The notes below the pieces were generated by a model. That model saw only the letters and a list, made by a program, of their open reading frames with translations. It was not told where the DNA came from and did no database searches. Positions 885 through 56,650 of a DNA stretch of 64,000 nucleotides are shown here, one piece after another. Numbering within the stretch: the stretch's first letter is position 1; the number at the start of each line of letters is the position of its first letter. Made by a program: the position numbers and the translations under genes. This DNA comes from Physcomitrium patens (taxonomy: Eukaryota > Streptophyta > Bryopsida > Funariales > Funariaceae): positions 4,877,477 to 4,941,476 of the forward strand of contig NC_037255.1 of NCBI RefSeq assembly GCF_000002425.4, in the 5' to 3' direction.

Positions 885-1440
885 TGTGAATAACAAGAAT
901 CTGATAAAAGCAAATAATTAAATAAGACCTTTTTCAAAGAAGTATGATAAAATAAAAATAAAGAAATATGTATATTAACAGGAAACTAGAATGGCTATTG
1001 CCAAAAGATAAGAAAATTAAAGACTCTTGAATCTAGATTAAAGCAAGAAAGGAGTTGACAAGAATAAAAAAGGCTTTATTCTTGCCTCTATATATACTAT
1101 CCACCTATAAGCTACGTGGTGACATTCTATAGGACCTCCAACATGTGTTGACTTTGCAAGCAACATGTCTTAACTTGCAAGGCAAGTTTTCTATGTGTGT
1201 ACTATATAGTTAGCTTGTTCCATAAGTTATTCATATGTATGACACATAGTTAACTTGTTGATGAAATTTCTAATCTAAAAGTCAATTATAAACATGTATA
1301 AAGTTAAAAATCGTATCTATAAAGCTTCTAAAAAACTTTTTTAGAAGATATTATAAAATTAATCTATTTTTATTTATTTTTTATTTACTTCTATCTAATC
1401 CTATAGATAATTATTAACATAAATATGTATATCTATGATA
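885..1440 (-). repeat. 3' LTR of chromovirus copy C
   Basis: It lines up along its length with the LTRs of A and B in reverse orientation. It begins TGTGAATAACAAG where B has TGTCAAGGACAAG, and ends at CTATGATA where B has CCGTGACA. The TATA-containing stretch and the primer motif, ATTCTTGTCAA on the minus strand (1055-1065), are kept. Confidence 0.8.
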
Positions 1441-3785: not shown

Positions 3786-4348
3786 TGTCTCGGACATAAT
3801 CATGTAAGCTAATAATTACATATACAAATAGGTAGAAGTAAGTAAAAGTAGATAAAAGTAAGTAAATTCTATAGTATTTAATATGGAAGCTTCCTAGAAG
3901 CTTTATAGATACTGCTTTGACTTCATAAGTGTCTTTAATTGACTTTTTGGATTAGAAACGTGGTCAACAAGTTGGCCGTGTGTCACACATGTTGTTAACT
4001 TGAAGATCAAGCTAATTATGTGGCCCACACGTAGAAGAACTTGCCTTGTAAGTCAAGGCATGTGTCCTACAAAGTCAACACATATTGGAAGTCCTATAGA
4101 ACGTTGCCACGTAGCCCCTAGTTAGATAGTATATATAGAGATAAGAGTGAAGGCTTCTTCACTCTTATCAACTCCTTTCTTGTTTCTAGTCTAGTTTCAA
4201 GGGTCTCTAGTTTTCTTGTCTTTTGGCAATAGCCATTCCAGTTTCTCTTTCAATATATATACTTGTTTATATATATATTTTGTTACCTCTCTTTGAGTGA
4301 AGGCTCACTTATCTGAATTGTTTTTTCATTGAATTCTTGTCCTTGACA
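3786..4348 (+). repeat. 5' LTR of copy A
   Basis: It matches 9620-10180 closely along its whole length. It starts TGTCTCGG (mutated from TGTCATGG) and ends CCTTGACA. It carries the TATA box and predicted RNA start. It is rich in short palindromes. Confidence 0.92.
4130..4171 (+). promoter_or_regulatory. LTR promoter: TATA box, palindrome and predicted RNA 5' end
   Basis: TATATATA lies at 4130-4137. A 13-bp perfect palindrome (4140-4152 and 4157-4169, 4-nt loop) follows. The usual spacing of about 30 nt puts the RNA start near 4161, where ACTCTTATCAA begins. In the 3' LTR the same place reads ACTCTTGTCAA (9995-10005), the exact complement of the sequence just after the 5' LTR. The start site is inferred, not measured. 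Confidence 0.6.
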
Positions 4349-4350
4349 GA

Positions 4351-4361
4351 TTGACAAGAGT
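4351..4361 (+). other. Primer-binding site of copy A, self-complementary type
   Basis: TTGACAAGAGT starts 2 nt after the LTR end. It is the reverse complement of ACTCTTGTCAA at the predicted RNA start of the family (3' LTR 9995-10005; one mismatch in the 5' LTR). Eleven-nucleotide self-complementarity right after the LTR is the Tf1-type self-priming layout. No TGG of a normal tRNA-primed site is found here. Copy B has the same arrangement. Confidence 0.65.
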
Positions 4362-4560
4362 ACACCTACAATATCAGAGCTTTGTCTAATCTTGATTAAG
4401 AGTGGATTACCCCTTTCTCTTGATAAGATATAAGCATATTAGAAGTTGCAGATTACCCTCTTCTAAACTGATATTATGCTTAGTATTTTCTTTGTTCTCA
4501 AGTCCTCTCTTCTATTTGTCTTGAGCGATATTAGACATCTTCTCTCTTCTAAGTGTTATC

Positions 4561-5493: not shown

Positions 5494-8400
5494 CGCAATC
5501 ACAAAATGAGGAGTATGGCTATGAAAGAAGACAATATGTCAGAAAACGAGTTTGTCCAGCTACAATAGGGACCGTGCGGTTGGAACCTTGTACAACTTCT
5601 AGTAAAGATCCTATTCTTTCCTAAGAGCCCTCTCCTTGTTTTATATTAAATGTTATTTTAGGACCTAAATATTACAAAGTCTCTACCTAGTTAGATTCAG
5701 GAGCCTCAGCGTGTTTTTTAGATGAAGAATTTACTAAAAGACATAGCATATCTTTAGTAAAGAAAACTAAACCTGTTCATGTAGAAGTCATAGATGGTTG
5801 TCCATTATCTTCTGGAGATATTACTTACGAAATTCTTCCTATAGAAGTAATAATTAATAGTCATAATAGTTTTGTAGTATTTAATATGATTAGATCTCCC
5901 TCTAATCCAGTCATTTTAGGTTTATCGTGGTTAGAAAAATACAACCCTCAAATAGATTGGATTTTCCGAACTCTTACTTTCTCTAAAAGTATAACTAATA
6001 GTATAGTTAATCAAGTAGAGAGTCATAAGTCCAATTCAATTAAACCCGTATTTATAGGTGTAAAAGCTTTCTTACATGCTGCTATGAAAGAATCACCATA
6101 TATTATTTATGCCACACCCATTTCTACTGGTGAAAAGACTTCAAGTGGTATTCCAAGCAATTATCAAGAATTTTAAGATGTATTTGAAAAAAAGAATGCG
6201 GATACACTCCCGGAACATCATCCCTATGATTGCTCAATTGACCTTCAAGAAGGAGCACAACCGCCATTCGGACCAATCTACAGTTTATCGCAAAATGAAT
6301 TGGCTGAACTCAAGGAGTATATTGAAGAAAATCTAGCCAAGAATTTCATATGCCATTCTAAATCTCCGGCAGGAGCTCCAATTCTATTTGTGAAGAAAAA
6401 AGATGGATCATTGCGGATGTGTGTTGATTATCGAGGACTCAACAAGATTACCATCAAGAACAGGTATCTACTATCTTTAATATCTGAACTTCTTGATCAG
6501 CTGAATCTAGCTAAGATCTATACAAAAATAGATCTTCGGGGAGCATACAATCTAGTACACATCAAAGAAGGAGATGAATGGAAGATTGCGTTTCGAACTA
6601 GGTATGAACATTTTGAATACAATGTCATACCTTTTGGACTTACAAATGCACCAGCAGCTTTTCAACATTTAATGAATGATATTTTTCGAGAGTTTTTGGA
6701 CGATTTTGTTGTCTGTTATCTAGACGACATCTTGATCTATTGTAAGAATCCAGAAGAACATGAACTTCTTGTTCGTCGTGTATTACAAAAATTAAGAGAT
6801 ACAGGACTCTATGCCAAGATAGAAAAGTGTGTATTCCACACTACTCAAGTCAATTTCTTAGGTTACATCATTTCAAATGATAGACTTATAATGGATCCTA
6901 AGAAAGTTCAAACTATTATAGATTGGAAGATCCCAAAAATGGTAAGAGATGTCGAATTTTTTTTAGGATTTGCCAACTACTATCGGATCTTCATCAAAGA
7001 CTTCTCTCGAGTTGCAGCTCCACTTACACGTTTGACTTGTAAAGACAAACTCCAATGGAATCAAGAAACGGAAGTTGCTTTTGAATCTTTGAAGACAGCG
7101 TTTGTTTCTGCACCAATCGTGTATCGTGTTGATTTTTCCAAAGCATTATTTATGGAAACACATGCATTAGACTTTGCTCTGGGTGTGGTTTTATCACAAT
7201 TGGGAACAGATGACAAACTTCATCTAGTAGCCTTTCATTCAAGAAAATTCTCAGCAGCAGAAATTAATTATGAGATCCACGACAAAGAACTTCTTGCAAT
7301 TGTGGATTCTTTTCAAGAATGGCATCATTATCTAGAAGGCGCTTCTAAACTAGTCACTGTGTATACGAATCACAAGAACCTCGAATATTTTATATTAGCA
7401 TGCATATTAAATCATTGCCAAGCTCGTTAGAACATGTCTTTATCAAGATTCGTGTTCATCATCACTTATTGGCTACGAAAACAACAAGGTTTGTCTGATG
7501 CCTTATCTAGACATTCTTATCTTGCACCAAAAGAAGGAGATGCAGCTTTTGAACAATAAAGAATAGTTCTCTTGAAGTTAGAGCAATTTCATCTTCGAGC
7601 AATAACATCAACATTGATTGTTGATTTAACTTTTCTTAAGCAAGTTCAATTAAGTATGTCTTCAGACCCTCTTGTTGATGATATCAAGAATAATTTTTCT
7701 AAATCTCATGATCTCTCTAAATTTGAATTCAAGAACAACCTACTCTATTTCGAAAGAGGCCTATATGTTCCAGAAGGAGAAGCACGTTTACGTGTTCTTT
7801 AAGCTTGTCACGACTTTCCAGCAGCAGGACATTTTGGATATAATAAGACTTTAGAGCTGATATCTAGGGATTTTTGGTGGCCTCAAATGTGGAAGGCAGT
7901 TAAAGATTTTGTACAATCATGTGATGTTTGCTCAAGATCGAAAACTCCTCGTCATCGATTTTTTAGACTTCTTCAGCCATTACCCATTCTAGAACAACCA
8001 TGGTCTTCTGTTTTTATGGACTTCATCATGGATCTTCCAATCTCAGGTTCTTATGACTCTATATTCATGATAGTAGATTGTTTTACCAAGATGGCACATT
8101 TTGTACCATGTACAAAATCTATCACATGTGAAGAAAAAATTAAGCTCTTTCTTGACAATATCTATCGCTATTATGGATTATCCAAGGATATTATATCAGA
8201 TAGGAGAACTCAATTTGTATCAAGATTTTGGTGGAGTCTTTTCAAGATTCTTAAAGTGGATATAAAACTATCTTCGGCATTCCATCCTCAAATTGATGGA
8301 CAAATGGAGCGTGTTAATTAAGTTTTGGAGCAATATTTAAGATGTACTATTAATTACCAACAAGATGATTAGACAACTCTTTTGCCATTGGCAGAGTTTG

Positions 8401-9050
8401 CTTACAATAACACGGTACATTCTTCTACAAAATAAACACCTTTCTTTGCTAATTATGGTTATCATCCACGACTTGATACTTTTGACTTTTCAAAAGTTGA
8501 TAATCTTGTTGTGAAAGATTTGGCAATTCATTTATTAGAGCTACATGCAACAATGAAGGCGCAGTTAAAAGAGACTTAAGAACAACAAAAGGTCAATGCG
8601 GATGTCTATCGAATAGAACAACCATCATTCATCTTGGGTGATAAGGTATGGCTACTTTGTCGCAATATCAAGACCACTCGTCCTTGTGACAAGTTGCACT
8701 ATCGAAGGTTGGGACCATTTTCTATTTCTGCACAAATCAATCCAGTTGCATATCATTTATATCTACCGGAGTCAATGAAAATCCATCTAGTATTCCACGT
8801 GTCTCTTCTTGAACCATACAAGACAGTGGACATACCAAGAAGACGACAAGCTCCACCTCCTCCTATAGAAGTGGACAATAATGAAGAGTTTGAAGTAGAA
8901 GAAGTCTTAGATTCAAGGCGGTGCCGAAATAAATTAGAATATCTTGTCCATTGGTGCGGATATGGTATTAGTGAACGCACATGGGAGCCAATAAAGAAAC
9001 TTACAAATGTAGCAAAGGCGGTGGAGGCTTTTCATCGACGACATCCATGA
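5490..9050 (+). pseudogene. pol: pol of copy A: protease, RT, RNase H, integrase, chromodomain
   Basis: One frame runs from the ATG at 5490 to 9050 without any frameshift. Protease DSG is at 5694-5702, reverse transcriptase YLDD at 6717-6728, RNase H about 7150-7420, integrase zinc-binding Cys pair near 7920, and integrase core with its D, D and E around 8017, 8198 and 8305. A chromodomain follows (about 8883-9047, ending with the typical Y-L-V-H-W and R-T-W-E-P blocks). Ten in-frame stops break it: 5622, 5688, 6174, 7428, 7557, 7800, 8319, 8370, 8433 and 8577. Those at 8319, 8433 and 8577 are also in B. Several others are CAA or CAG codons in B, so they arose by C-to-T. A 1-nt loss near 9047 truncates the normal end, which B keeps. 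Confidence 0.88.
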
Positions 9051-9605: not shown

Positions 9606-9619
9606 AGAAGGGGGGGTAA
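9606..9619 (+). other. Polypurine tract of copy A
   Basis: AGAAGGGGGGGTAA lies directly before the 3' LTR, as expected for plus-strand priming. E has AGAAGGGAAGTAA and B, on the minus strand, AGAAGGGGAGGTAA at the same place. Confidence 0.85.
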
Positions 9620-10180
9620 TGTCATGGACATAATCATATAAGCTAGTAATTACATATACAAATAGATAGAAGTAAGTAAAAATAGATAAAAGTAAGTAAA
9701 TTCTATAGTATTTAATATGGAAGCTTCCTAGAAGCTGTATAGATGCTGCTTTGACTTCATAGGTGTCTTTAATTGATTTTTTGGATTAGAAACGTGGTCA
9801 AGAAGTTGGCCATGTACCACACATGTTGTTAGCTTGAAGATCAAGCTAACTATGTGGCCCACACATAGAAGAACTTACCTTGTAAGTCAAGGCATGTGTC
9901 CTACAAAGTCAACACATATTAGAAGTCCTATAGAACGTCGCCATGTAGCCCCTAGTTAGATAGTATATATAGAGACAAGAGTGAAGGCTTCTTCACTCTT
10001 GTCAACTCCTTTCTTGCTTCTAGTCTAGTTTCAAGGGTCTCTAGTTTTCTTGTCTTTTGGCAATAGCCATTCCAGTTTCTCTTTTAATATATATACTTGT
10101 TTATATATATTTTGTTACCTCTCTTTGAGTGAAGGCTCACTTGTCTGAATTGTTTTTTCATCGAGTTCTTGTCCTTGACA
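9620..10180 (+). repeat. 3' LTR of copy A
   Basis: It runs from TGTCATGGACA to TCCTTGACA, an 8-of-9 inverted terminal match. It keeps the consensus primer motif ACTCTTGTCAA at 9995-10005 and a second palindrome, a 10-bp arm pair with a 3-nt loop at 9828-9850. Confidence 0.92.
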
Positions 10181-21361: not shown

Positions 21362-21913
21362 TGTAATATATATATCTATATATATATATATATATATATT
21401 CCAATATTTATCTATATGCTTAATAGAAATGAATAAAAAGAGATTAATTTCATATTATCTTTTAGAAAAGCTTTCTAGAAGCTTCATATATGTGGTTTTG
21501 ACTTACATATATTTGTAGTTGATTAATAGGTTAAAAACTTGGTTAACAAGTTAACTACATATCACATGTATTGATAGCTTGTAGAACAAGCTAACTATAT
21601 GGTATACATATAGAATACTTTTCTTACAACTTAAAATATATATTTTGTAAAGTCAATAGGTGTTGGAGGTCCTATAGAATATTACCACATAGTTTTTAGT
21701 TAAATAGTATATATAGAAGAAAGATTAAAGCCTTCTTTATTCTTGTCAATGCTTTTTTAGTCTTTAATCTTATTTTAAGACTTTTTAGTCTTCTTGTCTT
21801 TAAAAATAGTTATTCTAGTTTAATATTAAATCATCTTTAAGTGATTATTTAATCTTTTCAAGTAAGATAAGAATATATTTAGATTTAATTTTTTGAGATA
21901 CATGTCCTTAATA
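21362..21913 (+). repeat. 3' LTR of copy E
   Basis: It follows AGAAGGGAAGTAA and matches the LTR of A over about 550 nt, ending at CCTTAATA where A has CCTTGACA. A TA-dinucleotide run (about 21365-21400) expands its start. The primer motif ATTCTTGTCAA is kept at 21740-21750. Confidence 0.75.
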
Positions 21914-32493: not shown

Positions 32494-33255
32494 TGTGATT
32501 GCTCGTTTTACTTATTCCGGAAGAAACCTCCTAGAATAAACCCGTATAGGGAGATTCAAACACGAGAAATGACTAGTTGCTTAAGCGTTCACGTTAGGGT
32601 CACACAATCAATTATCTCCTAAATGTATCATCTCTATTTTCAATATCTAAACACACAAAGAAACTATAATCTCCTCCTTCACCTTATCGGTCTCTTCCTT
32701 ACAACAATTCAGTCATATCAATAATTACTATTTCTACCAATATATTCACCTTCATAATCTCCAACTATAATACTGCGCCCTCACAGCTTTCGGTACACAA
32801 TTACCCTCGTTCCAATCATTGGAATTCTTCACACAAAACTGCCATTCACATTACAGTGTTTCACACAAACACAGACTCATTCTCTCTTCTGAACTATAAT
32901 CAAATTTTAGCATTCAATCTTTCTTCTTCTTAAATAATACCAATCACATTTCCATTCCATAATTCAGTTCACAATATTCAGAAACGCTCAATCCTCTTAT
33001 TCAAAGAAAATAACAAACAAAAGAAAAGAGGTAGCTTTAAGCTTACCTCGGCTCACACTATCATAGCGATGGTACCTTAATTAACTTCTACAACTCCTAT
33101 ATATTTTTCCTTGATTCTTTAGATTCTTACTGTAATTTTGTAATTAACCACTTTTAATAACTAAATCACTCATCCATCCTCCTGAATTTCTTATTATATG
33201 GACTATTAATATATTTTACCAATATCTTTCAAAACGAATTAAGATCTATTCTACA
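32494..33255 (-). repeat. D1 3' LTR (left)
   Basis: On the minus strand it starts TGTAGAATAG and ends GCAATCACA. The G-rich AGGAGTGGGGCTA on the minus strand (33256-33268) is the polypurine tract. Confidence 0.88.
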
Positions 33256-33363
33256 TAGCCCCACTCCTATCTATGCAGTATCTTTGCAAACACTCAATTG
33301 ATACCTATCTAAGAATTATCTAACAAAACTCTACAAAAATTACGATCCCTCTAACCTATCTTA

Positions 33364-33770
33364 TTAATCAATTGTCACAGTATCTGTTATTAGTTCCATC
33401 GATTTTGGTTCCAACTGCAAATCTTCATCCTCCTCTAATCCTTCCATCGGCTCCTACTTCAACTGAGCTGAAAGGTCTTCATTGTACTCACCCAGTACAT
33501 AGACTTGAGCATCCAGTTTCAAGATCTGGGCATCTTTCAATTCCAACTGGTGCTGAAAGTGGCTCCTCTCTTCTGGAACTTCTTCAATCGACACTTGTGA
33601 CCGGCTCTTCACTATTAATTTTTATTTGGAACTACTACTCTCAAAAATACAAGGAATATAAGAAAATGGCACTCTAGCCAACCCAAAATAATACCACAGA
33701 ATGACTTTAACTGATGCCCCACTCCTATTTTTTTACTACTTGGTGATAATGACAACATGTTACTCATACT
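33364..33770 (-). pseudogene. D1 3'-terminal ORF remnant (coiled-coil protein)
   Basis: The minus-strand reading Q-V-S-I-E-E-V-P... then L-K-D-A-Q-I-L-K-L and E-Y-N-E-D-L-S-A-Q-L ends at TAA 33364-33366. It matches D2 at about 60525-60790, where a longer heptad-rich protein precedes it. Much of the ORF is deleted in D1. This is an extra gene after pol, of unknown function. Confidence 0.5.
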
Positions 33771-34075
33771 GTCCGTAAAAGGTAATGGAAAGTAATCTTT
33801 CTTGGTGGCCGTATTAAGTTTCAAGAAATCCTAACAAATTCGGATTTTTCCATTCTTTTTTGGCACCATCATGATTAGAGAAACCCACTCACTATGCGAA
33901 AGAGGATAAATAAAATCCATGTCGAGAAGTTTATCCAATTCCTCTTTCACTAAAAAGAAATATTTTGGGTTAAGTCAGTATTGTCTTTGACGAACTAGCA
34001 TAACATCTTCCTCCAAAATAATCTTGTGCTCACACACATCAACTGGAATCCCTTTCAAATCTGCATACGACTATG
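33771..34075 (-). pseudogene. D1 reverse transcriptase stub
   Basis: The minus-strand reading shows a Ty3 reverse transcriptase start: M-M-V-P-K-K-N-G-K-I-R-I-C, then K-L-N-T-A-T-K-K-D-Y-F-P-L-P-F-T-D. It stops abruptly at about 33770. The active-site block and everything downstream to the 3' ORF are gone, so no enzyme can be made. Confidence 0.75.
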
Positions 34076-35570
34076 CAAAGGCAGATTTGTGATGGACAAA
34101 AAATTGTTTCCAAGCATCCAATTCTGTACCTATAATATTGGCATATATTTTAATTAGCTGTGGCATTTCGTTGGTGTCCAGGTTAATAGATTGACACATA
34201 GGGTCTTCAACAACCTCTGATTTAATTATCTTCTCCTGATCTGAATATCTTGTATTATCTGACATATGAGAACCACACAAATCTGGTTCTAATGTGTTGA
34301 CTCTATTGACTACGGAATTATTCATCCATTTGGCAATAGCATGATCCGAGTTAGTTGCATCTTCGTGATGCAGTAAATATTCACCGGAACTTCCATATTG
34401 ATAGACTCCTACCTTTGCTGTTGAAGTATTTTGTCCTACCCCAAATTGCGGTGAACCTATAGCATCATCATCTTCCTCAATCGATTGACTTTCATTGTCC
34501 GATGTAAATTCTGATTCTGGCAATTGAGATTCTCTATGATATTGTACTGGATACATCTGTAGAACAATCTGGTCATGGCCTTTTCCAATTGTCATTGTGC
34601 CTCGATTCCAATCGTTCTTAGCTTTGGCTTGATAAAGCCAAGGTCTACCTAATAAAATGGGATACGATAACATAGAACTCTGTAATCAAAATACAATATA
34701 ATCGATTTTTTATGTCAATCTCGTGATTACAGTGGCAATATTTCATAAGATTCCATTGGCTTTACCCAACTATGATCTGCCATTCGCAAGATCAATGTTG
34801 TAGATAGCAATTGCTTTAGATCCAAGTCTTCCATTGTATCTGCATTCATTAAATTCACACTGGAGCCACCATCGACTTATATCCCTGGAATTAAAACGCC
34901 ATCGATTGATATATTGATTGTTGGTGCTCCCGGATCTGGGTTTAAGCTAACTTCATGAATTTCTTTAATGCGGGATCTTTGTTGTATTAACCCTGAATTC
35001 AATGTAAATCGACATTCCAATGCTACAGCCAAAAGTTGCTTCATTATAATTGAAGGCTGAATAACATCGAAATCCTTCAAAATGTCGTAGGATTCCATAT
35101 TGAGAGTAATTTCCAATGTTTTTTTTGCATTTCATTGGTTTCGATTTTACTCCTTTCGGCAGCAATTCCTTCCTGGCGATTGGGATTGCCGTTGGTAACT
35201 TTACCAACTTTTCTACCACTAAAGGTTCCTTTAATGCATAAGATCTTTTATTGGGTTGTATAGGTATTGGTACTTGGTCAGTTGGGATTGATCTTGATTG
35301 TCCCAGCAAATTGGTACGTGGGACTGAATTGGGTTCTTGAATCTGTTGAGGTCTCAATATTGGAATACGTCCCAATACTGATGTTGATTCGTTTAGCCCG
35401 ATGGATGGCGCTACTTGCTCTCCTGCGATTGATTCATCCAGGTCTTGAATTAGATTCTTGTCTTTTTGTTGGCCTCTGATAAGCATTGCGTTCATTACCT
35501 CGACATGATGTACTGGTGAATCTCGTTGAACAAGGCCTTTGTCCTTTGTCGATTGGCTTGTTTGCATTTA
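34076..35570 (-). pseudogene. D1 protease and linker region
   Basis: The minus-strand linker (about 35110-35567) leads into the protease: the catalytic block reads V-D-G-G-S-S-V-N-L-M near 34836-34881, and L-L-G-R-P-W-L near 34640. A frameshift near 35110 in an A-rich run and another near 34750 separate the open pieces. After the protease comes an acidic spacer of about 150 codons before reverse transcriptase. Confidence 0.7.
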
Positions 35571-37462
35571 TTGGTCCCGGTTATTATAATTAAAGGGCGC
35601 ATTGCACTGCTGATAAGTGTGATCAGACTGCTTATAATTTCCACATATTGGAGCATAGTCATCACTGGCCTTTGGATTAGGACATTCACTCGCATAATGA
35701 TCAATCTGTCTGCAACGGAAACAACGAAGTAGTCTTCTTGCACCTCCTTCAGGGATAATGGGTGTCTCTGCTGGTATATAATGGCTAGGTCTGTTCCATG
35801 TCGAATGAGTAAAGGATCTTGGTTGTCCATTATTACTGTAGAGTCTGGCATTGGCTTCGTCATGGATGAATATTGATGGTATCCTAGTTGATTCATTGCC
35901 AATCTGTGAATATTGGATACACCTTCTTGGTAAAATTCAGAGTTTAGGAAATTGGAATAATTTTTGATTTATTTATTTGCTCGATTTCCATTCCACCCAA
36001 ACTTATTATTCATTTGTACTTGATTTACATCCCACAAAGTTGGTTGAGTCATTATCTAGTTTGAGTTGTTGTTGCTTTCATAAATTCCAATAGTTGGTAG
36101 TAATATGCTTGCCCCCACAAAAGATACATTGTACAGTCATTTAGGGAAGTGAAGGACATTCTGTTACTAAATGACCTTGCCCTTTACAATTAGTGCACCA
36201 AACATTGGGACACATATTAGTTGGTTTATACTTTTTTTCTTTATCCTTGGTCAGATTCATAGCCAATTCATCAATTATTTTCGTCAATATTAATAGAAAT
36301 GACTCATTGGGATCCCTTGATACCAATGCATTTACCAATTCCTTCGTAGGTATTGGTTTTTGATATGTGGAATAAGGCACATACAGGTGTGATGATGATG
36401 GTGTTACAGCTTGCAATGGAACGGCATCCACTATTCCCTATGGAATTGTACCATAATCATTCTTTCCCAGATAACTTTCCGATGCGTCATTCCAATTTGT
36501 CATTTGATAACTTCTTTGAGATGGAATCATCGTGGCTCCAACTGTTAAGTTTTGGTCATAGTGACATTCCTCCCATACTTTTGGTCGCTCAAGAAATGAT
36601 GCAATGGTGGCTGATTGGGCATCCTTTACAAACATCTTCAATTCTGGTGGATGTAGTCCATTAACCAATATGGACAACACAAATGATTCTGGCATTTGGT
36701 TATTTGGCCATTTTCAAAGTATATCCGCTACACGACTATAATATGACTATACCGCTTTCCATGGTACCATCTACTGTTCATTAATTTTTCTTTAAGATGT
36801 TCTTCAAAACCAATTGATCAAAAATGGGCTAAAAATGTATTTTTCAATGCCTCCCAATTGATAAATTGTCCCATAGGTTGGCGGTTACACCACTCAAATG
36901 CTGTATCTTTCAATGTTGTTGGCAGCCATCTCAGCCAAATATCTTCTATTCTTCTATTATTAGCTACACATGCCATCAAGAATTGAGACAAATGTTGATT
37001 TAGATCCGCACCTGGCAAACCTCGAAAAGTAGGTAATGGCGCGATGCTAGTCATTCGATTGCCCACTTCACCCATTTGAACTGCAATCGAAACTGCTGGT
37101 CCTCTAGACGTCATTAAAGATGTCGATGTTCCGCTCAATTTCTTATTAAAATAAAAACTGTCTCCCGTAAAAGTATTTTTCGGACTTCAAGGCCTTCCAG
37201 ATTGACTATTATTATCTCCAAATAATTTTACTGGTTGAATATGAGGAAAAAATGACAAGTTTTGATATACTCTAAATTGATCTTTATTGACAAGTAATTT
37301 ATGCCGATCTTCAGAACCAATCTTATTAAGATCGGATGTATTTCCAATTGACAAAATACCCAGTGGGGTACTTAATTCCTCTGTACCTTCCTTGTTTTTC
37401 GTTAACGACTTTGAGAGGTATGCTGGACTATTAGCAGTACTTCTTGTGAGTGCTCTTGGCAA
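35571..37462 (-). pseudogene. gag: D1 gag with three zinc-knuckle motifs
   Basis: The frame starts at ATG 37462 on the minus strand with a basic N-terminus, has one TGA near 37185, and contains the gag core (36818-37138, with W-L-P-x-T-L and A-F-E-W-C). A further frame holds 36141-36695 with a knuckle C-T-N-C-x4-H-x4-C near 36160. Two more knuckles follow at about 35680-35727 (C-F-R-C...H...C) and 35615-35663, the last with its second Cys changed to Tyr by TGT to TAT. Other stops and a frameshift near 36780 break it. Confidence 0.75.
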
Positions 37463-37773
37463 TTTTTTTTAACGATATGTACTTCTAAAATATTAGAGGT
37501 CGATTGTCTTCTGGGTATGATCGAATATGCCAAGAGGCATGCAACCACAGCTTAATCCAACTTTGTCAATGCTTCTTTTTCAATTTGCGATCTCGCTCAT
37601 TACGCAACAAATTTCTTGCTTGCGATCGCTCTGTTATTTCCTTTGATTGCTTTATTTTCTTTGCTATTAAATTCTTATTCTTAATAACCATACTCTTTGA
37701 TTATTTCTATTAAGTTTGCTTCCTAATCTCCTTTACTACTTCGACAGTTAATTCCTAACACTCAATAATGTTG

Positions 37774-37794
37774 TCAATCCCATCAGCGGCACCA
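37774..37794 (-). other. D1 primer-binding site
   Basis: On the minus strand TGGTGCCGCTGATGGGATT starts 3 nt after the 5' LTR. The leading TGG fits a tRNA CCA end. I cannot name the tRNA from memory. Confidence 0.7.
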
Positions 37795-37797
37795 AAA

Positions 37798-38408
37798 TGT
37801 GATTGCTCATTTTACTTATTCTGGAAGAAACCTCCCAGAATAAACCCGTATAGGGGGATTCAAATACGAGAAATGACTAGTTACTTAAGCGTTCACGTTA
37901 GGATCACACAATCAATTGCCTCCTAAATATATCGTCTCTATTTCTAATATCTGAACACACAAGGAAACTATAATCTCTTCCTTCACCTTATCTGTCTCTT
38001 CCTTACAACAATTCAGTCATACCAATAACTCCTATTTCGACCAATATATTCACTCTCATAATCTCCAACTGTAATATTGTGCCCTCACAGCTTTTGGCAC
38101 ACAATTACCCTCGTTCCAATCACTGGAATTCTTCACAAAAAATTGCCATTCACATTACAGTATTTCACACAAACACAGACTCATTCTCTCTTCTGAACTA
38201 CAATCAGATTTCAGCATTCAATCTTTCTTCTTCTTAAATAATACCAATCACATTTCCATTCCATAATTCAGTTCACAATATTCAGAAACGCTCAATCCTC
38301 TTATTCAAAGAAAATAACAAACAAAAGAAAAGAGGTAGCACCAAGCTTACCCCGGCTCATACTATCACAACGATGGCACTTTAATTAATTTCTACAACTC
38401 CTATATAC
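37798..38408 (-). repeat. D1 5' LTR, first part
   Basis: It matches 32494-33255 closely. It is interrupted by copy B at 38408 (target duplication TATAC) and completed at 44805-44956. Confidence 0.88.
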
Positions 38409-38968
38409 TTTCAAGGACAAGAACTTAATAAAAAGAAATTCAGACAAGTGAGCCTTCATTTGAAGAAAGGTAACAAAATATAAATAAACAAGTATGTATA
38501 TTGAAAGAGAAATTGGAATGGCTATTGCCAAAAGATAAGAAAACTAGAGATCCTTGAAACTAGACTAGAACTAAGAAAGAAGTTGACAAGAGTGAAGACA
38601 GCTTCACTCTTGTCTCTATATATACTATCTAACTAGGGGCTACGTGGTGATGTTCTATAGGACCTCCAATATGTATTGACTTTGTAGGATATATGCCTTG
38701 ACTTACAAGGCAAGTTTTTCTATGTGTGGGCCATATAGTTAGCTTGATCTTCAAGCTAACAACATATGTGGCACATGGCCAACTTGTTGACCACGTTTTT
38801 AATCCAAAAAGTCAATTAAAGACACCTATGAAGTCAAAACAGTGTCTATGAAGCTTCTAAGAAGCTTCCATATTAAATACTATAGAATTTACTTACTTTT
38901 ACCTACTTTTACTTACTTCCACCTATTTATATATGTAATTACTAGCTTACATGAATACGTCCGTGACA
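38409..38968 (-). repeat. 3' LTR of copy B (left)
   Basis: It begins TTTCAAGGACAAG (first G mutated) and ends CCGTGACA. The 13-bp palindrome next to the TATA box is perfect here (38585-38597 and 38602-38614). The primer motif, ACTCTTGTCAA on the minus strand, is at 38583-38593. Confidence 0.92.
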
Positions 38969-44226: not shown

Positions 44227-44237
44227 ACTCTTGTCAA
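44227..44237 (-). other. Primer-binding site of copy B, self-complementary type
   Basis: TTGACAAGAGT on the minus strand lies 2 nt after the 5' LTR, exactly as in A. It pairs over 11 nt with the predicted RNA start (perfect with the left LTR; one G-U pair with the right LTR at 44414-44424). Confidence 0.65.
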
Positions 44238-44239
44238 TT

Positions 44240-44799
44240 TGTCAAGGACAAGAACTCGATAAAAAGAAATTCAGTCAAGTGAGCCTTCATTTGAAGAAAG
44301 GTAACAAAATACAAATAAACAAATATGTATATTGAAAGAGAAATTGGAATGGCTATTGCCAAAAGATAAGAAAACTAGAGACCCTTGAAACTAGACTAGA
44401 AGTAAGAAAGAAGTTGACAAGAATGAAGACAGCTTCACTCTTGTCTCTATATATACTATCTAACTAGGGGCTACGTGGTGATGTTCTATAGGACCTCCAA
44501 TATGTATTGACTTTGTAAGATATATGCCTTGACTTACAAGGCAAGTTTTTCTATGTGTGGGCCATATAGTTAGCTTGATCTTCAAGCTAAAAACATATGT
44601 GGCACATGGCCAACTTGTTGACCACGTTTTTAATCCAAAAAGTCAATTAAAGACACCTATGAAGTCAAAACAGTGTCTATGAAGCTTCTAAAAAGCTTCC
44701 ATATTAAATACTATAGAATTTACTTACTTTTACCTACTTTTACTTACTTCCACCTATTTGTATATGTAATTACTAACTTACATGAGTATGTCCATGACA
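44240..44799 (-). repeat. 5' LTR of copy B (right)
   Basis: It runs from TGTCAAGGACAAG to CCATGACA and is the same length as the left LTR. The palindrome beside the TATA box has one mismatch (44416-44445). Confidence 0.92.
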
Positions 44800-44804
44800 T
44801 ATAC

Positions 44805-44956
44805 TTTTTCCTGATTCTCTAGATTCTAACTGTAATTCTGTAATTAATCACTTTTAATAACTAAATCACTCATCCGTCCTCTTGAATTTTCTATTATATA
44901 GACTATTATTATATTTTATCAATATCTTTCAAAAATATATTAATATCTATTCTATA
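44805..44956 (-). repeat. D1 5' LTR, second part
   Basis: It resumes TTTTTCCTGATTCTCTAGATTC as the continuation of 38403 and ends at TATTCTATA (TATTCTACA in the other LTR). Confidence 0.85.
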
Positions 44957-44961
44957 GAGAC

Positions 44962-45212
44962 CTTTGTGGTTAATAAGATGTCAAAGGATCCAAGGACCAT
45001 AGGATACCCTCGAGGTACATTAGATACCAAAGGATCCTAAGACCAAGGATCATATGTGAAAAAGTCAATAAATGGAAGTTGTCTTGTAGGGCAGCAACCA
45101 CTACCTATAAGTATTGGGTGTTGGAATCGAGAGACATCTGACTCCATACTCTCTTTGTGTACAACCTTGCTGATGCTATATGTTGTCACTTCAAAGTTTT
45201 ATTTCTATAATA
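44962..45212 (+). repeat. K 5' LTR, second part
   Basis: It continues 32493 and matches the end of the K 3' LTR (58413-58663). Confidence 0.88.
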
Positions 45213-48358: not shown

Positions 48359-49571
48359 TGTCGTGTTGTAACACGAGTATACCGTGAAAATATAAAGAAA
48401 GGGGACTTTTATTAATATTTAGTTACCTCGAATATTGGGGGCAACAACCAATTCCAGTGCAAATACTTGGAGGCCAAGGTCAGTCACCCCGTTACAATCA
48501 TTCGGGGCATACTGAAATGCTCCGTTTGATTCCAATAACGGGAGTCAGCAGAAAGGGAAAGGACGAATTCAACAACGGGTGAACCTGGTTCGAAGAGCCA
48601 ATTGGATCCAATTTCAAGACATCCAATCCAGATCTTACTACGGGCCTCTTATGTAATATGAGACCTGAATTGGTCGGGCAATCCAATGCGGTCCAATTTC
48701 AAGACATCTAATCCGGGTCCTCTTAGCCAATATGAGACCTGAATTGGTCGGGCGACTCAATGTGGTCCCGATTACGGGGCTCTGATTCCGTTTCAAGCTG
48801 TTCCGTCCTTTGTGTCATTCTGAGAATGTTGTTTTTAGTAAAAGGATCTCTTAAAGGTAAGAACGGAGGAGAGAACTTTGACGGCGGAGCCAATTTCGGA
48901 TCCAAGACGGAAGATTGAAAAAATTGAGAGGCTAGGGTTTGAAAGAGGAGAGAATTAGGGTTAAAGGAGAGGATAGGTTAAGAAATGGAGGGAAGAGAGA
49001 ATAAGTTTTTTGGGGTTTTGAAAGATCGGGGAGCTAGCTTTATACTTCGGAGTTGGAAAAAAAGATAGAGAATTGGGTTTTTTTTTCTTCATAGGATTTT
49101 GGGAAGACTGAGGCAATCGTTGCTGAAGTCAGTGTTGTAATGGTGAATCAAAATTTTTAATGAAGTAAGTTTGATTACTCTTGACTGTTTTGTGAAATCA
49201 AAATTACGTCTGTGATTGAAGAATTAAAAGGGTGTCTATAGGATTGAATATGCAGAGTGAATGAAATTTATTGGATTAATCTAACGAGACAATCAATGGA
49301 TATAAGATCGTGAGTATAAAGTGGTATCGAAGATTAGCAGTTTGGATTGTTCGGGGATCTTTGTAACGTCTAGAGACCTACCGGTTGGGGCAAAAAGGAC
49401 TTCGGCAAGCAGTCGAAGGATATCTGTATAGATTTACGGTGTATTCTTGCAGTCGTTTATATTCCAACAGTCAAAAACTAAAAGACTGCTTGAATATTGG
49501 CGAATCTCCATACTACCTTCTACAGCCAGACGCCTGTCGCGTTCTCGAGCAGGAAAGCACGTAATACGACA
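48359..49571 (+). repeat. W1 5' LTR with unique tandem duplication
   Basis: It is 85 bp longer than the 3' LTR because of a tandem repeat at 48608-48692 (85 bp) and 48693-48766 (74 bp), present once in the 3' LTR. Otherwise the two LTRs match from end to end. Confidence 0.88.
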
Positions 49572-49576
49572 TAAAG

Positions 49577-49594
49577 TGGTGAACCCGACGTGAA
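49577..49594 (+). other. W1 primer-binding site, tRNA-Trp type
   Basis: TGGTGAACCCGACGTGAA is the complement of the 3' end of plant tRNA-Trp as I recall it (ending TTCACGTCGGGTTCACCA). It starts 5 nt after the LTR. Confidence 0.8.
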
Positions 49595-49676
49595 AGCTTG
49601 AGGTGGAAGGTATTGGATTTCGTTTGATTTTAGTTTTATTTTATGGAAAACGAAAATAAAAAATTTTGAAGTATCT

Positions 49677-51331
49677 TTGGGAGGAATTTTTGGTGGGGAT
49701 TCTTCTAAAAGACAAGGTATGTATATGAATCCATCTATTTCTAGTATGTTTCAAGCCTTCTCATTATCAATGCAGCAACAGCAAAGCAATGATCAAAAGG
49801 AAGCTTTGGCAACGAAAGCATTGCAACCAGTGGTCAATAAAATTGATCAATTTGATGGAAGGAATATTTTAAGGTATTTAAGATGTTATGTTTGTGAAAT
49901 GGAATTAAATTAGGTTTTTGAGAAGAAAATGGTTGAATTATTTAGACTTGCCATGATAACAGAGATAAGAGACCATATTACATCGATTACGGATTATTAT
50001 GGGAATTCATGGGAGGTTTTTTTACATGCATTGAAAGACAAATATTTCTGAGAAGATGTTGATCGCGTTACTAAGAAGTTATTTCTGGAATGGATTGAAC
50101 GGCCCGATAAGAATTTGCAAGCAGCAGAGCTACTAAGGGAATTTGAGAGGCAGTACTCTCAATTATCGAAGGTAGAAAAATTGACATTGGAGCCGAACAA
50201 AGTTGATCTATTTCTTCAAGCTACTGATGGAGAATTGCAAGGAAATTGGAACTCCTTCTTGAAGACAAAGAAGAAGATAAAGGATTGACAACAAAGTAGA
50301 AGAACGTTGAAGATGCGGTGGAGTTGCTTACAAAAAGAGAAAGAAAGAAGGATAGGAGCAATATTCCAAAAATAGTATAAGCATCCAAAGTTCCAGTACG
50401 TACAACACCACCAACAATGCCTACAATTCAACCTTCGACATCCTTATCAAAGAAAGCAGATATGGGAATGGAAGAAATTATACGAGGAATACGAGATCTT
50501 CAAATCAAATTAGCAAGACTTGAAGAGAATACTTCTACAAACAATTCAAAGAATGTTTCAAAACAAGAATATGTACAAAGATGCATTTGGTGTGATGATG
50601 CTTCACACACTAGAAAAGATTGCAATGAATTTAATAATATGATACGGCAAGGAATTATTTGCTGAAAAGATGGGAAGATAGCATTAAAAGATAGGGAGGA
50701 TCTTCTTCAAACCAATTTTGGCAAGGGAAGAATGAGAGCATTGGTTCAAGATTACTTGAAAGAGCATGAAATAGCAGCACGAGAAAGTACAAGTTATGGT
50801 GCTAGAGTAGATGATGACCTTGGTGGAAGTACGGAAACTAGTGAGTTTTGGGCTTCTGCCATTTCTACAATGCAAGAAAGGAAATTACCTCGAGAAGCGT
50901 TATTGAGGACTGCAGCTACAATATGAAGTACAACAGGTTGGGAGGATCCTGTTGAGTCTCTTTCAATTCATGCATATATTCCTAAGAGCCAACATGAAGC
51001 TTAGATGGAAGAAAAGAGACGAGGAAATTTGGATGATACGAGAGAAGGAAATTCTTCTAAGAGACAAACTCGAGGAGACAAGGCTCAGGAGGCAGCTTCA
51101 CAAGAATTACTTGTAAAGGATACCTCAGCATCATTGGGAGAAAAAACAAAGGAGACAAAAGATAAGGGCAAATCAATTGCTTATAAGCTACTTTCTGACA
51201 TTGAAGCGGCAACAAATTTGAAAGGGGTGTTGGAAGAACGTATATTAAACGCTAAGGTAGAATTCACATTGAAAGAAGTCTTGAGTTTCATGATGTTATC
51301 ATTGACAGCATTAACCGAAAGAGGCAATTAA
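49677..51331 (+). pseudogene. gag: W1 gag
   Basis: Open pieces lie at 49677-49913, 50417-50665, 50732-50926 and 51005-51331, in two frames. The F-D-G-R-N-I block is near 49850, capsid-like region to about 50280, and zinc knuckle C-I-W-C-x4-H-x4-C near 50583. The last piece ends at TAA 51329-51331, overlapping the ATG of pol. Stops at several sites are of the CAA to TAA or TGG to TGA type. Confidence 0.8.
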
Positions 51332-54300
51332 TGGACGAAACTGGAATGAGTCATGCTATTGATGCAAGAATATATAAAGATGAAGAAGAGGTTGATATTG
51401 GTTACAAGCAACCAACAAATGAAAAGAATGGGTATAATCAACGAGTACGTTTTGAAGATTATAGTGATAAAGAAATGGAAGCTTTGAGCCATTATACTCG
51501 AAAGCATTGGACAAGGGCAACTACTGAGGTATTGGTGAAAGTAGGAGATATAGAAGAACCAATTGTTGCTTTAGTCGACCATGGTTTTGAAATAAATCTC
51601 ATGTCTAAAGATCTTTATAAGAAGCAAAAATGGCCAATTGATATGGAACATGGATGGACAATACGAGCAGCTAATAACACATGGGGCGAATTATATGGAG
51701 CTTGTCCAGATGTCAAAATTCGGATTGAGGATGTTGCAATGAAGCAAAATTTCTTTATTCAAGATACAACATCTTATCCGTTGATTTTAGAACAACCTTA
51801 TATTACGGCAACACGGATGGAAATAAAAGTACTTGATGATGGTTCTGTTTATGCAAGGGTACATAGCAAAGATGGAAAGAAAGCTGTACAATTTCTAACA
51901 GTACCTTCTAACCATGAACGGAATCGAGATAAGTTGAAGGAGAAACCATTGCCAAAGATTGTTGAAGGATTTAAGGATTTTGGGGAGGTACCACTGTAAA
52001 GCGAGATTATGGAGGTACAAAAGAGGAGGTACTCTCGCGAGATGAAGGTGCCTTTGATTCGAGTTTTATTGGTATTTTGGAGAATGGAAATATTATGTAT
52101 AAGAAATTTAATGCTTTTAAAAGAAAAGAAAGAAATAGATTATATAATATTGAAGGAGAATTATGCAAGTTAAGTACATTGCAAGATGATGAGAGGATTT
52201 TAGATGTTTATGAAGAAAATGGACTAGAAGATTCATTGGAATTGATTACATATATTGGGTTAGGAAATAATGATAAGATTGTTGAGATTCATTCAAGAGA
52301 GGTTTATACCATACTTGAATCTTTTCAAGCACCAGAAGTCACTGTAGAGACGAGATATAAAATGGCAGATAAGAAGGTAAAGCCTGTTGCCGAACCATTG
52401 CCAAAAGATTCTAAAGAACAAATGGATGAAGCATCAAAAGAAGCAAGTTTAAGAGATCCAATGAGTATTGGACATTAGTTTACTAAAGAGACTTTTGAAG
52501 AATTGAAGATTGGTTCTGATGGTTCTTTATTGCCGGAGGAAATTACTTGCTTCAAAAAGATATTGGCTAAACAAGGTAGATCGTTTGCCTTCGAATTTTA
52601 TGAAATTGGGTGTGTGGATCCGAATATTATAACACCTATGGTTATCTTCACTGTATCGCATATACCTTGGAATCTAAGACCGATTCTAGTATCGAGGGTA
52701 CATTTATCTAAATTGGTGGAACTATTAAAAGAAAAGATGAAGATGAAAATATAAGAACCCTCTTTTGCACCGTATTCTAGTCGATAATTTATGATACCTA
52801 AGAAGAACGGGTCACTACGGTTTATTCAAGATATGCAACCGATGAATGCAATAACTGTCAGGAATGTAGGAATTGGACCTATTGTGGATGAATTTGCTAA
52901 GGCGTTTGTTGGAAGGGCGATCTATTCAATGAGTGACTTATATTTAGGTTATGATCAATTTCAACTTGCCGAAAAAAGTAGAGATATGACAACAATGAGG
53001 ACACCACTTGGATTGGTTACAATGTGCACTCTTCCTCAAGGCGCAACCAACTCAGTTGTGCATATGATGAATGGGATGAATAAGGTATTGAGAGATTTTA
53101 TTCCGGAAAAGACTATGCTTTTTCTGGATGATGTTCCTATAAAAGGGTGCAGAGAAGGAGACAAGGATGAAACTTTAGATACGAGGGGGTGTCGCAAATA
53201 TGTTGTTGATCATATACAAGATTGTAAAAAGATTTTAACTCGGCTTGGAGAAGTTCATCTTACATTATCAGGTATGAAGTCCATATTTGGAGTACGAGAT
53301 GTTGTGATTGTTGGACATTTATGTGGATCTTACGGAAGAAAACCTGATCCGACTAAAGTTGATGCAATTGGAAGGATGAAAGAAGATTGTGATTCTTTAA
53401 CAGAGATTCGCAGGTTTTTAGGTGCATGTGTATTTTATCGAATCTGGATCCCTCATTATGCTCAAATAGCAGATCCATTATATGAACTGTTACGCAAGGG
53501 CTACTGATTTAAATAGAAAGAAAGGCATATTCATGCAATGCAAAGATTGAAGAAATTATTGTTGTCACCTCCAATATTGAGGAAGGTTGATTATAAGTAC
53601 AATAGACTAGTGATTCTTACTATGGACGCTAGTCCAATTGCCATTGGATGGGCTGTGGATCAAGATGATTCCAATGAGAATAGATTTGCAATTCGATTTG
53701 GAGCTAAATTGTTAAGTATTCGTTAGCGTGCATATTCGTAAGTCAAAAGAGAACTTTGGGGAGTTGTTTCGGCTATGAAAGCTGAAAAGGACTATTTGAT
53801 TGGGGCAATAGTAGTAATTGAAACAGATTGCTTGCCATTGCTTGGAATGATTATTAACTGTTCAACACCAGATATTGCAATGTTGAGATGGGTTGCTTAT
53901 ATCAAGTCACTAAATTTAGAATTTAAGCATGTTACTGGGAAGGATAATTTAGTAGCAGACATGCTATCTCGAGCAAGATACGAGAGGGAGGACGAAATAG
54001 TTGAAGACATTGATGACGTCGGATTGAAATTCTATTCAATATCAAATATCAACAGGGAGGACAAGCTATTTCTTGAAGAATCTTATGAAGGAGAATTATT
54101 GGATATTGGTCATTACTTGAATATCTTGACTAAGCAAGGGAATTGATCTACAGAAAAATTCAAACAAATAAGAAAAAAAGCATATGGATTTTTACTTCAA
54201 GATAGATTCTTATGGAAGAGATCGAAGAAAGGAATTGGGATGCCACAATGAGTGATAGGCAAAAAGGAAGAAAAACTAAAATTATTAAAAGAGTTTCATG

Positions 54301-55458
54301 ATAGTTTATGGGCAAGGCATAGAGGAATCTAGGCTACTTTTGCTAAACTCAAGGAATGATATTGGTGGAAAAATATGTATCGAGATGTGCTCTCATTTGT
54401 AGAGTCATGTGAAATCTGTCAATTGTATTCTAATATCCGACATCGAGATAGTCTTCATCCTACATATCCTCTGGCTATTCATTTTAAATGAGTTGTTGAT
54501 TTGGTTATTATACCAGTTGGGTTATGGCAGATGAGATATTTGGTTTTAGCTCGTGAAGATTTATCAAATCAAGTAGAAGGAAGAGCATTGAGGATAAAAT
54601 CTACAGAGGAGATTTGTAGGTTTTTGCTTGAAGATGTCATTTGCCGCTACGGATGCGTAGGAAAAATCACTGCAGATCGTGGAGAATTAAATGCACAAGA
54701 AGCTCGTAAGTTCTTTGAAAGATGTGGAGTTAAACTATCATTGACTACTGCTTATAATCCTGAAGAGAATGCAAAAAGTGAATGTGGTCACCCACCGATT
54801 ATGAAAGGATTAGTTAAAGCTTGTAATAGAAAAGTTAAAGAGTGGCCACGGCTTTTGTCATTTGCATTATGGGCTGATCGAACAACATATAGTTCAGTGA
54901 CAGGATATATGCCAATAGAACTTATGACATGTCGAAAACCAATTATGTCGATTGAAGAAAAGGTACTTACTTGGAATATGCTACCATGGGAAGATGGATT
55001 GACAAGAGAAGAACTTCTCGCTGTTAGGATTCAACAATTGGAGCAAAGATCGGAAGATGTGCAAATAGCATTGAAAAGGTTAAAAAGAGCAAGGTTACAA
55101 AACAAGGCGCGATTCGATAAGCAACATCGATTGAAACCTAAAGCAATCGAGGAAGGTGACTGGGTACTTGTTTATGACAATAGTCTGGATAATCAACATA
55201 GTTCTTTGCAGAAATTTGGATCATATGTAGTAACAACTGTTCATGATAATATGACTTACTCATTACGGGAGTTAGATGGTACAAAATTGAAAATACCAAT
55301 TGCAGGGAAGCGAGTAAAAATATTTAAATGAAGACACGCGGAGATGAATATGGAAGGCCTTAATGAAGGTATAGAGATTCTGCAACAAGAAGATGAAAGT
55401 GATTTGGATAATGAAGGTGACAAAGACAAACAGGACAAAGACGTAGAGAATATATTCT
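51331..55458 (+). pseudogene. pol: W1 pol: protease, RT, RNase H, integrase
   Basis: It starts at ATG 51331, overlapping the gag TAA. The protease (about 51530-51840) has D-H-G at the catalytic site. A frameshift lies near 52010. Reverse transcriptase is at 52791-53507, with P-K-K-N-G-S-L-R-F, Q-D-M-Q-P-M-N and the F-L-D-D active site near 53128. RNase H is at 53538-54146 with M-D-A-S. Integrase is at about 54290-55320, with zinc ligands around 54300-54420, D-L-V near 54496, the second Asp in A-D-R-G near 54676 and the K-S-E block near 54774. A TGA at 55329 (CGA type) truncates a 40-codon acidic tail. Other stops are at 53505 and 53725. Confidence 0.85.
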
Positions 55459-55510
55459 AAATCAAACAGCAATTGGATAAATTGGTGCATAACATAGGAT
55501 GCACATGTTC

Positions 55511-55522
55511 AGAGGGAGTGGA
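55511..55522 (+). other. W1 polypurine tract
   Basis: AGAGGGAGTGGA directly precedes the 3' LTR. Confidence 0.75.
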
Positions 55523-56650
55523 TGTCATGTTGTAATACGAGTATACTGTGAAAATATAAAGAAAGGGGACTTTTTCTAATGTTCAGTTATCTCGAATATT
55601 GGGAGCAACGACCAATTCCAGTACAAATACTGAGAGGTCAAATTTAGTCACCACGTTAGAGTCAATCGGGGCATACTGAAATGCTTCATTGGATTCCAAT
55701 AATGGGAGTCAGCAGGAAGAGAAAGGACCAATTCAACGATGGGTGAACCTAGTTCGAAGAGCCAATTGGATCCAATTTCAAGACATCCAATCCGGGTCCT
55801 CTTAGCCAATATGAGACCTGAATTGGTCGGGCGACTCAATGTGGTCCCGATTACGGGGATTCCGATTCTGTTTCAGGCTGTTCCGTCCTTTGTGTCATTC
55901 CGGGAACGTTGTTTTTGGTAAAAGGATCTCTTAAAGGTAAGAACGGATGAGAGAACTCTGACGGCGGAGCCAATTTTGGATCCAAGATGGAAGATTGAAG
56001 AAATTGAGAGGCTAGGGTTTAAAAGAAGGGAGAATTAGGGTTAAAGGGGAGGATAGATTAAGAAATGGGGAGGGAGAGAATAAGTTTTTTGGAGTTTTGA
56101 AGGATCGGGGAGCTAGCTTCATGCTTCGGAGCGGGGAAAAAAGACAGAGAATTGGTTTTTTTTTTTCTTCATAGGATTTTGGGAAGACTAAGGCAATCGT
56201 TGCTGAAGTCAATGTTGTAATGGTGAATCGGGATTTTTAATGAAGTGGATTTGATTACTCTTGATTGTTTTGTGAAATCGAAGTTACGTCTATGATTGAA
56301 GAATTAAAAGGGTGTCTATAGGATTGAGTATGCAGAGTGAATGAAATTTATTGGGTTAATCTAACGAGACAGTCAGTGGATACAAGATCGTGAGTATAAA
56401 GCGATATCAAAGATAAGCAGTTTGGGTTGTTCGGGGTTCTCTGTAACATCTAGAGATCACCTGCTGGGGCAAAAAGGACTTCGGCGAGCAGTCGAAGGGC
56501 ATCCGTATAGATTTACAGTGTATTCTTGCAGTCGTTTATATTCCAACAGTCAAAAACCGATAGACTGCTTGAATATTGGCGAATCTCCATACTACCTTCT
56601 ACAGCCAGACGCCCGACGCATTCTCGAGCAGGAAATCACGTAATACGATA
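55523..56650 (+). repeat. W1 3' LTR
   Basis: It starts TGTCATGTTG and ends ACGATA (ACGACA in the 5' LTR). It holds one copy of the unit duplicated in the 5' LTR. Confidence 0.88.

Follow-up and report, generated by a model that had tools for sequence, protein, structure and literature searches.

Self-priming of reverse transcription was predicted in 2019 for the majority of Tcn1 clade members in moss and clubmoss, and likewise in plants for the TAR lineage of Ty1/copia (Houba, Osr-1), according to the accessible text of PMC6317226. Fungal Tcn1 elements have been proposed to self-prime, and the primer of the fission yeast element Tf1 is 11 nt long (PMC7175516, accessible portion). In Selaginella, neither tRNA priming nor self-priming was found for Tcn1 in the part of PMC2864245 available to us. 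Tcn1 elements are reported in the moss Physcomitrium patens (accessible text of PMC6911290), whose genome of 462.3 Mb carries 5,092 complete copies of the chromodomain gypsy element RLG1, its most abundant transposable element; RLG1 is reported to be expressed in wild-type protonema (PMC7466625, accessible portion).

Here, we analyzed a 64-kb stretch of P. patens DNA (the window) that contains two full-length LTR elements, A and B, with 5-bp target site duplications (TSDs; ATGGT in A and GTATA in B). The LTR ends are settled because these duplications flank them, and CA closes the 5′ LTR at 4348 in A and 44240 in B. Reading frames are broken in both. As judged from sequence, A and B are best explained as decayed members of an extremely abundant family of Ty3/gypsy chromoviruses in P. 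patens, of the Tcn1/Tf1-sushi type, which we infer, in part from its copy number, to be RLG1 of the literature. The LTRs and the sites relevant to priming are as follows.

3786 to 4348, plus strand: 5′ LTR of A (self-comparison, 94.7% identity to 9620-10180; TSD ATGGT on both sides)
4130 to 4137, plus strand: TATA box of the A 5′ LTR, TATATATA (direct reading; its first T is 31 nt away from R1, the predicted RNA start)
4161 to 4171, plus strand: predicted RNA start and primer R1-11 in the A 5′ LTR, ACTCTTATCAA (one change; A-C mismatch to the PBS)
4351 to 4361, plus strand: primer binding site (PBS) of A, exact TTGACAAGAGT (motif search and direct reading; 2 nt past the LTR)
9606 to 9619, plus strand: region of the A polypurine tract, where AGAAGGGGGGGTAA precedes the LTR (direct reading)
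9620 to 10180, plus strand: 3′ LTR of A (self-comparison, TSD; K2P to the 5′ LTR, 0.052)
9995 to 10005, plus strand: exact 11-nt primer sequence in the A 3′ LTR (motif search)
44240 to 44799, minus strand: 5′ LTR of B (self-comparison, TSD; K2P to the 3′ LTR, 0.031)
44414 to 44424, minus strand: primer sequence in the B 5′ LTR, ATTCTTGTCAA (one change; U-G wobble to the PBS)
44227 to 44237, minus strand: PBS of B, exact TTGACAAGAGT (motif search)
38409 to 38968, minus strand: 3′ LTR of B (self-comparison, TSD)
38583 to 38593, minus strand: exact 11-nt primer sequence in the B 3′ LTR (motif search)
1055 to 1065, minus strand: primer-sequence relic in old LTR copy C (motif search)
21739 to 21749, plus strand: primer-sequence relic in old LTR copy E (motif search)

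Consistently with the initial annotation of this DNA, TTGACAAGAGT lies 2 nt past the 5′ LTR of both elements (the gap being GA in A and AA in B), its exact complement occurs in both 3′ LTRs, 31 nt past TATATA and at a CA, and each 5′ LTR primer site carries one changed position. Complementarity between primer and PBS spans exactly 11 nt in A and B, beginning at the predicted RNA start, with the flanking bases unpaired. C and E do keep the motif with one change, as had been claimed, but the site in E starts one position earlier than annotated (21740-21750), and both are LTR, i.e., primer-side, copies rather than copies of the PBS. Another old copy, D, on the minus strand at about 17.3-18.1 kb, has neither primer nor PBS in exact form. 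Within the window, ten sites match the 11-mer pair with at most one mismatch versus 2.18 expected, a number reached in 0 of 100 shuffles, and the complement of TTGACAAGAGT arises in only 3 (A) and 2 (B) of 5,000 shuffled 3′ LTRs, which together make chance at the level of the window unlikely.

Tf1-type self-priming is the best explanation of this pair, and a likely one. Transcription would start 31 nt past TATATA, at the first A of ACTCTTGTCAA, and nucleotides 1 to 11 of the RNA would fold back onto TTGACAAGAGT, 2 nt past the 5′ LTR, with the potential to form an 11-bp duplex. By likeness to Tf1, cleavage by RNase H behind nucleotide 11 would release an 11-mer, from which minus-strand DNA synthesis would be primed.

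The coding remains of A follow the Ty3/gypsy order PR-RT-RH-IN and continue with SH3_Tf2-1 and Chromo.

5691 to 6173, plus strand: protease piece, frame broken (Pfam RVP_2, 9.3e-07)
6177 to 7427, plus strand: reverse transcriptase and RNase H piece (RVT_1, 1.3e-37; RT_RNaseH_2, 5e-29)
7803 to 8318, plus strand: integrase piece (Integrase_H2C2, 3.8e-19; rve, 1.7e-07, slightly below the curated cutoff at 31.9 vs 32.6 bits)
8580 to 9047, plus strand: integrase end (SH3_Tf2-1, 7.2e-20) and chromodomain (Chromo, 1.5e-14)

In the TAR lineage of Ty1/copia, the integrase lies upstream of the reverse transcriptase. The integrase pieces of A are located downstream of RT/RH, unlike in TAR; the A/B family differs from that lineage in its gypsy domain order and its chromodomain. 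Among solved structures, the best relative to bear a transposon name is Ty3-G (7q5b, E 9.1e-72), and the six organism-named RT homologues among the 120 listed of 7,463 come from two frogs, one fish, and three fungi. In the alignment, F, W, and Y occupy the three cage positions of the A chromodomain, which places it, with an aromatic cage, in group I, as the classical domains are called in PMC3350952. According to the accessible text of that paper, Tcn1 elements of Physcomitrella and Selaginella carry group I chromodomains, which are also found in green algae and in two Galadriel elements of Selaginella; seed plants have group II chromodomains only. The nearest named matches and the domain marks, rather than a tree, point to the Tcn1/Tf1-sushi chromoviruses as the lineage of A and B, although the occurrence of group I chromodomains outside Tcn1 in the same source weakens the assignment to Tcn1 itself.

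We extended the motif search to 470 Mb of genome. The 11-mer was found at 10,188 + 10,291 places (20,479) versus 64 + 59 (123) for the reversed control, and exact primer and PBS at 165- to 195-nt spacing were found at 3,567 places versus none for the control; this pattern is its own complement, so 3,567 is a single-strand count. The leader that follows the PBS, searched with up to three mismatches, gave 5,807 matches (control, 0). To avoid selection for the motif itself, a sample of copies was picked by exact leader match and not by primer or PBS. It was composed of 30 leader loci, 60 of 70 further listed places, and the window, with all sampled places on contigs C1 to C3. These 91 sources held 92 leader matches, from which 82 copies were parsed and 10 were dropped with an unparsed R site, although L011, at least, does carry one. 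A single row whose R site is false stays in the counts for n = 82 but is excluded from the RNAalifold, U5-stem, second-duplex, and shuffle-fold sets; at least two rows in which R and PBS are unusually spaced are likewise excluded from these sets.

Of the 82 sampled copies, 60 have an exact R and 52 an exact PBS. Full 11/11 Watson-Crick pairing of R with the PBS is possible in 41, with one G-U pair in 7 more and two in 1, whereas the best alternative 11-mer in U5 forms at most 9 Watson-Crick pairs with the PBS. The 2-nt gap between LTR and PBS is GA in 73/82 copies, the spacing from TATATA to R1 is 31 nt in 73/82, and R-1/R1 is CA in 77/82. The commonest variants are C-to-T and G-to-A, as would be expected for methylated old copies. 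Two divergent copies, L150 (C1:2995662-2995851) and L149 (C1:3738599-3738786), have a U5 that is 68 to 71% identical to that of L151; both were selected for exact primer and PBS, and the identity of their 11-mers is not counted as conservation. A leader search for this divergent subfamily gave four matches, one being L150 itself. R is exact in two of the three further copies and was not seen in the third, and the PBS differs at two positions in all three.

The initial annotation had also asked whether the two halves of the pair covary across genomic copies. This test was run, and covariation was not shown. In the leader-chosen sample, changes in R and PBS are not associated (Fisher p 0.37). 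Fixed-context counts over the genome gave 2,846 unchanged partner pairs, 101 with R2 C-to-T alone, 239 with PBS10 G-to-A alone, and 28 with both; as a non-partner control, PBS5 C-to-T occurs alone in 229 and together with the R2 change in 18. The resulting odds ratio is 3.30 (2.13-5.12) for partners versus 2.21 (1.32-3.72) for non-partners (ratio 1.49, z 1.15). Because changes of every kind are likely to be more frequent in older copies, which would raise both odds ratios, we do not call the value of 3.30 covariation. The claim that the family primes itself agrees with most of the sequence tests, the exceptions being covariation and the wider Tf1 RNA structure.

To the extent that folding can inform on the proposed duplex, RNA starting at R1 favors it. 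Across 57 copies selected to have both R and PBS exact, the mean R:PBS probability was 0.94, 0.94, 0.67, and 0.90 with leaders of 0, 24, 45, and 75 nt, respectively; the pairing exceeded 0.5 in 55/57 copies with the 75-nt leader and in 41/57 with 45 nt. In another set of 32 copies that included decayed ones (about 45 nt of leader), values ranged from 0 to 0.97. The leader holds a second PBS-like stretch, TTGATTAAGAGT, at 4392-4403, which is found at most 60 nt from the PBS in 51 of the 57 copies; it may compete for the primer, notably with 45 nt of leader. Shuffling U5 and leader lowered the mean R:PBS probability only to 0.85, versus 0.93 for the natural sequences (38 copies), indicating that the duplex itself is decisive and that no special context is needed. 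RNAalifold on 79 copies returned an R:PBS probability of 0.0 in the free run, and forcing the pair lowered the energy, a result that was set aside because the program's threshold on mismatched pairs probably makes both runs incomparable. A candidate for a second Tf1-like duplex joins nucleotides 37 to 44 with PBS positions -12 to -5 (8/8 pairs in 62/79 copies), but an equally good stem arose in 234 of 2,000 shuffles; a search of the 24 nt that follow the PBS revealed no third "pretzel" duplex.

Two other partners for the PBS were weighed. The end of U5, e.g., 4333-4341, reads ATTCTTGTC in A and often GTTCTTGTC in other copies. It is nearly complementary to the PBS, and the PBS might merely form a local hairpin with it, the match to R being secondary. 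This stem reaches at least 7 nt in 60/79 copies and offers a nearer partner; R, however, pairs all 11 PBS bases and prevails in nearly all the exact-pair folds with the 75-nt leader described above, and a cut in the U5 hairpin would, by our reasoning, break the template immediately upstream of the primer, so that we regard this reading as highly improbable. The other candidate is a host tRNA, either whole or as a half-molecule cut in the anticodon loop, that occupies the PBS while the LTR match is coincidental. Plant chromoviruses primed by tRNA (Tekay, CRM, Reina, and Galadriel) carry a TGG-type PBS complementary to the tRNA 3′ end. TGG is absent from the first 25 nt past the LTR in A and B, and the best exact tRNA match to the PBS complement is 6 nt among 47 distinct tRNAs (21 anticodons), short of the 12-nt match at the LTR junction that the initial annotation had set against self-priming. 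The tRNA set is incomplete: ARAGORN was applied to 52 of 63 genome tRNA loci (contigs C1 to C27 and the organelle-sized C100 and C101), the other 11 sharing scores with those used, and it returned 65 tRNAs. On these grounds, an ordinary chromovirus primed by tRNA-iMet was rejected, with nuclear iMet apparently lying outside the set, and a 10-nt match to tRNA-Met was discarded as a PBS since it is placed in the leader. Half-tRNA priming is known in some plant copia lineages (accessible text of PMC6317226) and, given the incomplete set, keeps a small probability. Set against this, the LTR complement is exact, sits at the predicted RNA start, and is repeated thousands of times, which makes a host tRNA highly improbable as the primer.

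Two other LTR elements of the window contrast with A and B in having TGG 3 to 5 nt past the LTR end; their best 3′-anchored tRNA match is 5 nt, as obtained from rough tRNA parsing. In the element at 32494-38408 (minus strand), TGG occurs 3 nt past the LTR end (TGGTGCCGCTG...). B seems to have inserted into an LTR of this element, since matching sequence resumes at 44799-44962. The element at 48683-56648 (plus strand) shows RVT_1, a weak RNase H, and a weak rve match, with TGGTGAACCCGACG 5 nt past the LTR end.

The primer of the proposed self-priming reaction itself overlaps a palindrome at the U3/R border (13 bp with a 4-nt loop).

4140 to 4169, plus strand: U3/R palindrome, A 5′ LTR (fold -19.4 kcal/mol, z -5.25)
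9974 to 10003, plus strand: U3/R palindrome, A 3′ LTR (-21.3 kcal/mol, z -4.87; 0/200 shuffles as stable)
38585 to 38614, minus strand: U3/R palindrome, B 3′ LTR (-20.3 kcal/mol, z -4.69)

Directly upstream of R1 comes GACAAGAGTGAAG, whose reverse complement, CTTCACTCTTGTC, is separated from it by 4 nt. The 3′ arm includes the first 9 nt of the primer, which is thus paired with the end of U3. A pattern with 12 of the 13 pairs fixed and one left free as C/T by G/A occurs at 6,299 places in the genome (reversed control, 0), and 76/82 sampled 5′ LTRs retain 11 or more of the 13 pairs. Adding 24 nt of U3 to the RNA reduced the mean R:PBS probability to at most 0.036 in the 57 exact-pair copies, while R paired the U3 arm at 0.92 to 0.94. 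Since the U3 arm captures R in these folds, the primer is predicted to be hidden unless the RNA begins at R1. Both arms differ between the palindromes of the two A LTRs (4140-4169 vs 9974-10003), with the pair preserved. Reading this as covariation was rejected: both changes are of the C-to-T type, and the arms are unassociated in the sample (p 1.0 and 0.6). The double change was not found among the places listed in the genome pattern search, and it probably represents two decay changes.

We propose that the U3/R stem would hide the primer copy of the 3′ LTR, because genomic RNA carries the U3 arm only at its 3′ end, and that it would also hide the primer in read-through RNAs, so that only the true 5′ end could prime. 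Such a start-site check for self-priming, in which only an RNA starting exactly at R1 has a free primer, is a tentative model that we consider rather doubtful. The palindrome could instead act in DNA, as a promoter or transcription factor site, with primer pairing unaffected. It covers the zone of promoter elements, from the TATA box to +9, and its presence at thousands of places extends to old and divergent copies, partly with mismatches. The location of primer nucleotides 1 to 9 within the 3′ arm and the very stable RNA fold speak for the latch, but neither is direct evidence against a promoter site, to which we give an even chance; a DNA-level role is at least as likely as an RNA latch. A palindrome over the primer was not found in the accessible self-priming literature, a scope that does not include the original Tf1 work, and the primer-hiding hairpin may be a new feature.

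Collectively, the A/B family resembles the Tcn1 clade of moss and clubmoss, as far as the accessible sources describe it, in being a chromodomain gypsy element with predicted self-priming, a group I chromodomain, and a very high copy number. A further Tcn1/Tf1-sushi trait of the family is that its PBS complements the LTR where the RNA is predicted to start, rather than the 3′ end of any tRNA in the incomplete set. The predicted 11-nt primer of A and B matches the primer length of Tf1 (accessible portions of PMC7175516, PMC10085805, and PMC4600332), whereas of the three-duplex pretzel of Tf1 the family offers one candidate extra stem, no better than chance. The initial annotation implied novelty by stating that plant chromoviruses normally use tRNA-iMet; this did not hold, as self-priming was already predicted for moss elements of the Tcn1/Tf1-sushi type (accessible text of PMC6317226). 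The family exemplifies a predicted class well and adds little that is new in mechanism or clade; its exact primer, spacing, and U3 palindrome are not given in the accessible portions of the published descriptions (PMC6317226, PMC2864245, PMC3350952, and PMC7466625). If the self-priming reading is right, an element that ranks among the most abundant in a model plant relies on the priming route originally demonstrated in fission yeast, and thousands of natural variants of a self-priming element would be available for study. The palindrome, in turn, suggests in a concrete and testable form how the second primer copy of a self-primed element is kept from priming; if true, the latch would provide a built-in distinction of the genome 5′ end from the 3′ repeat.
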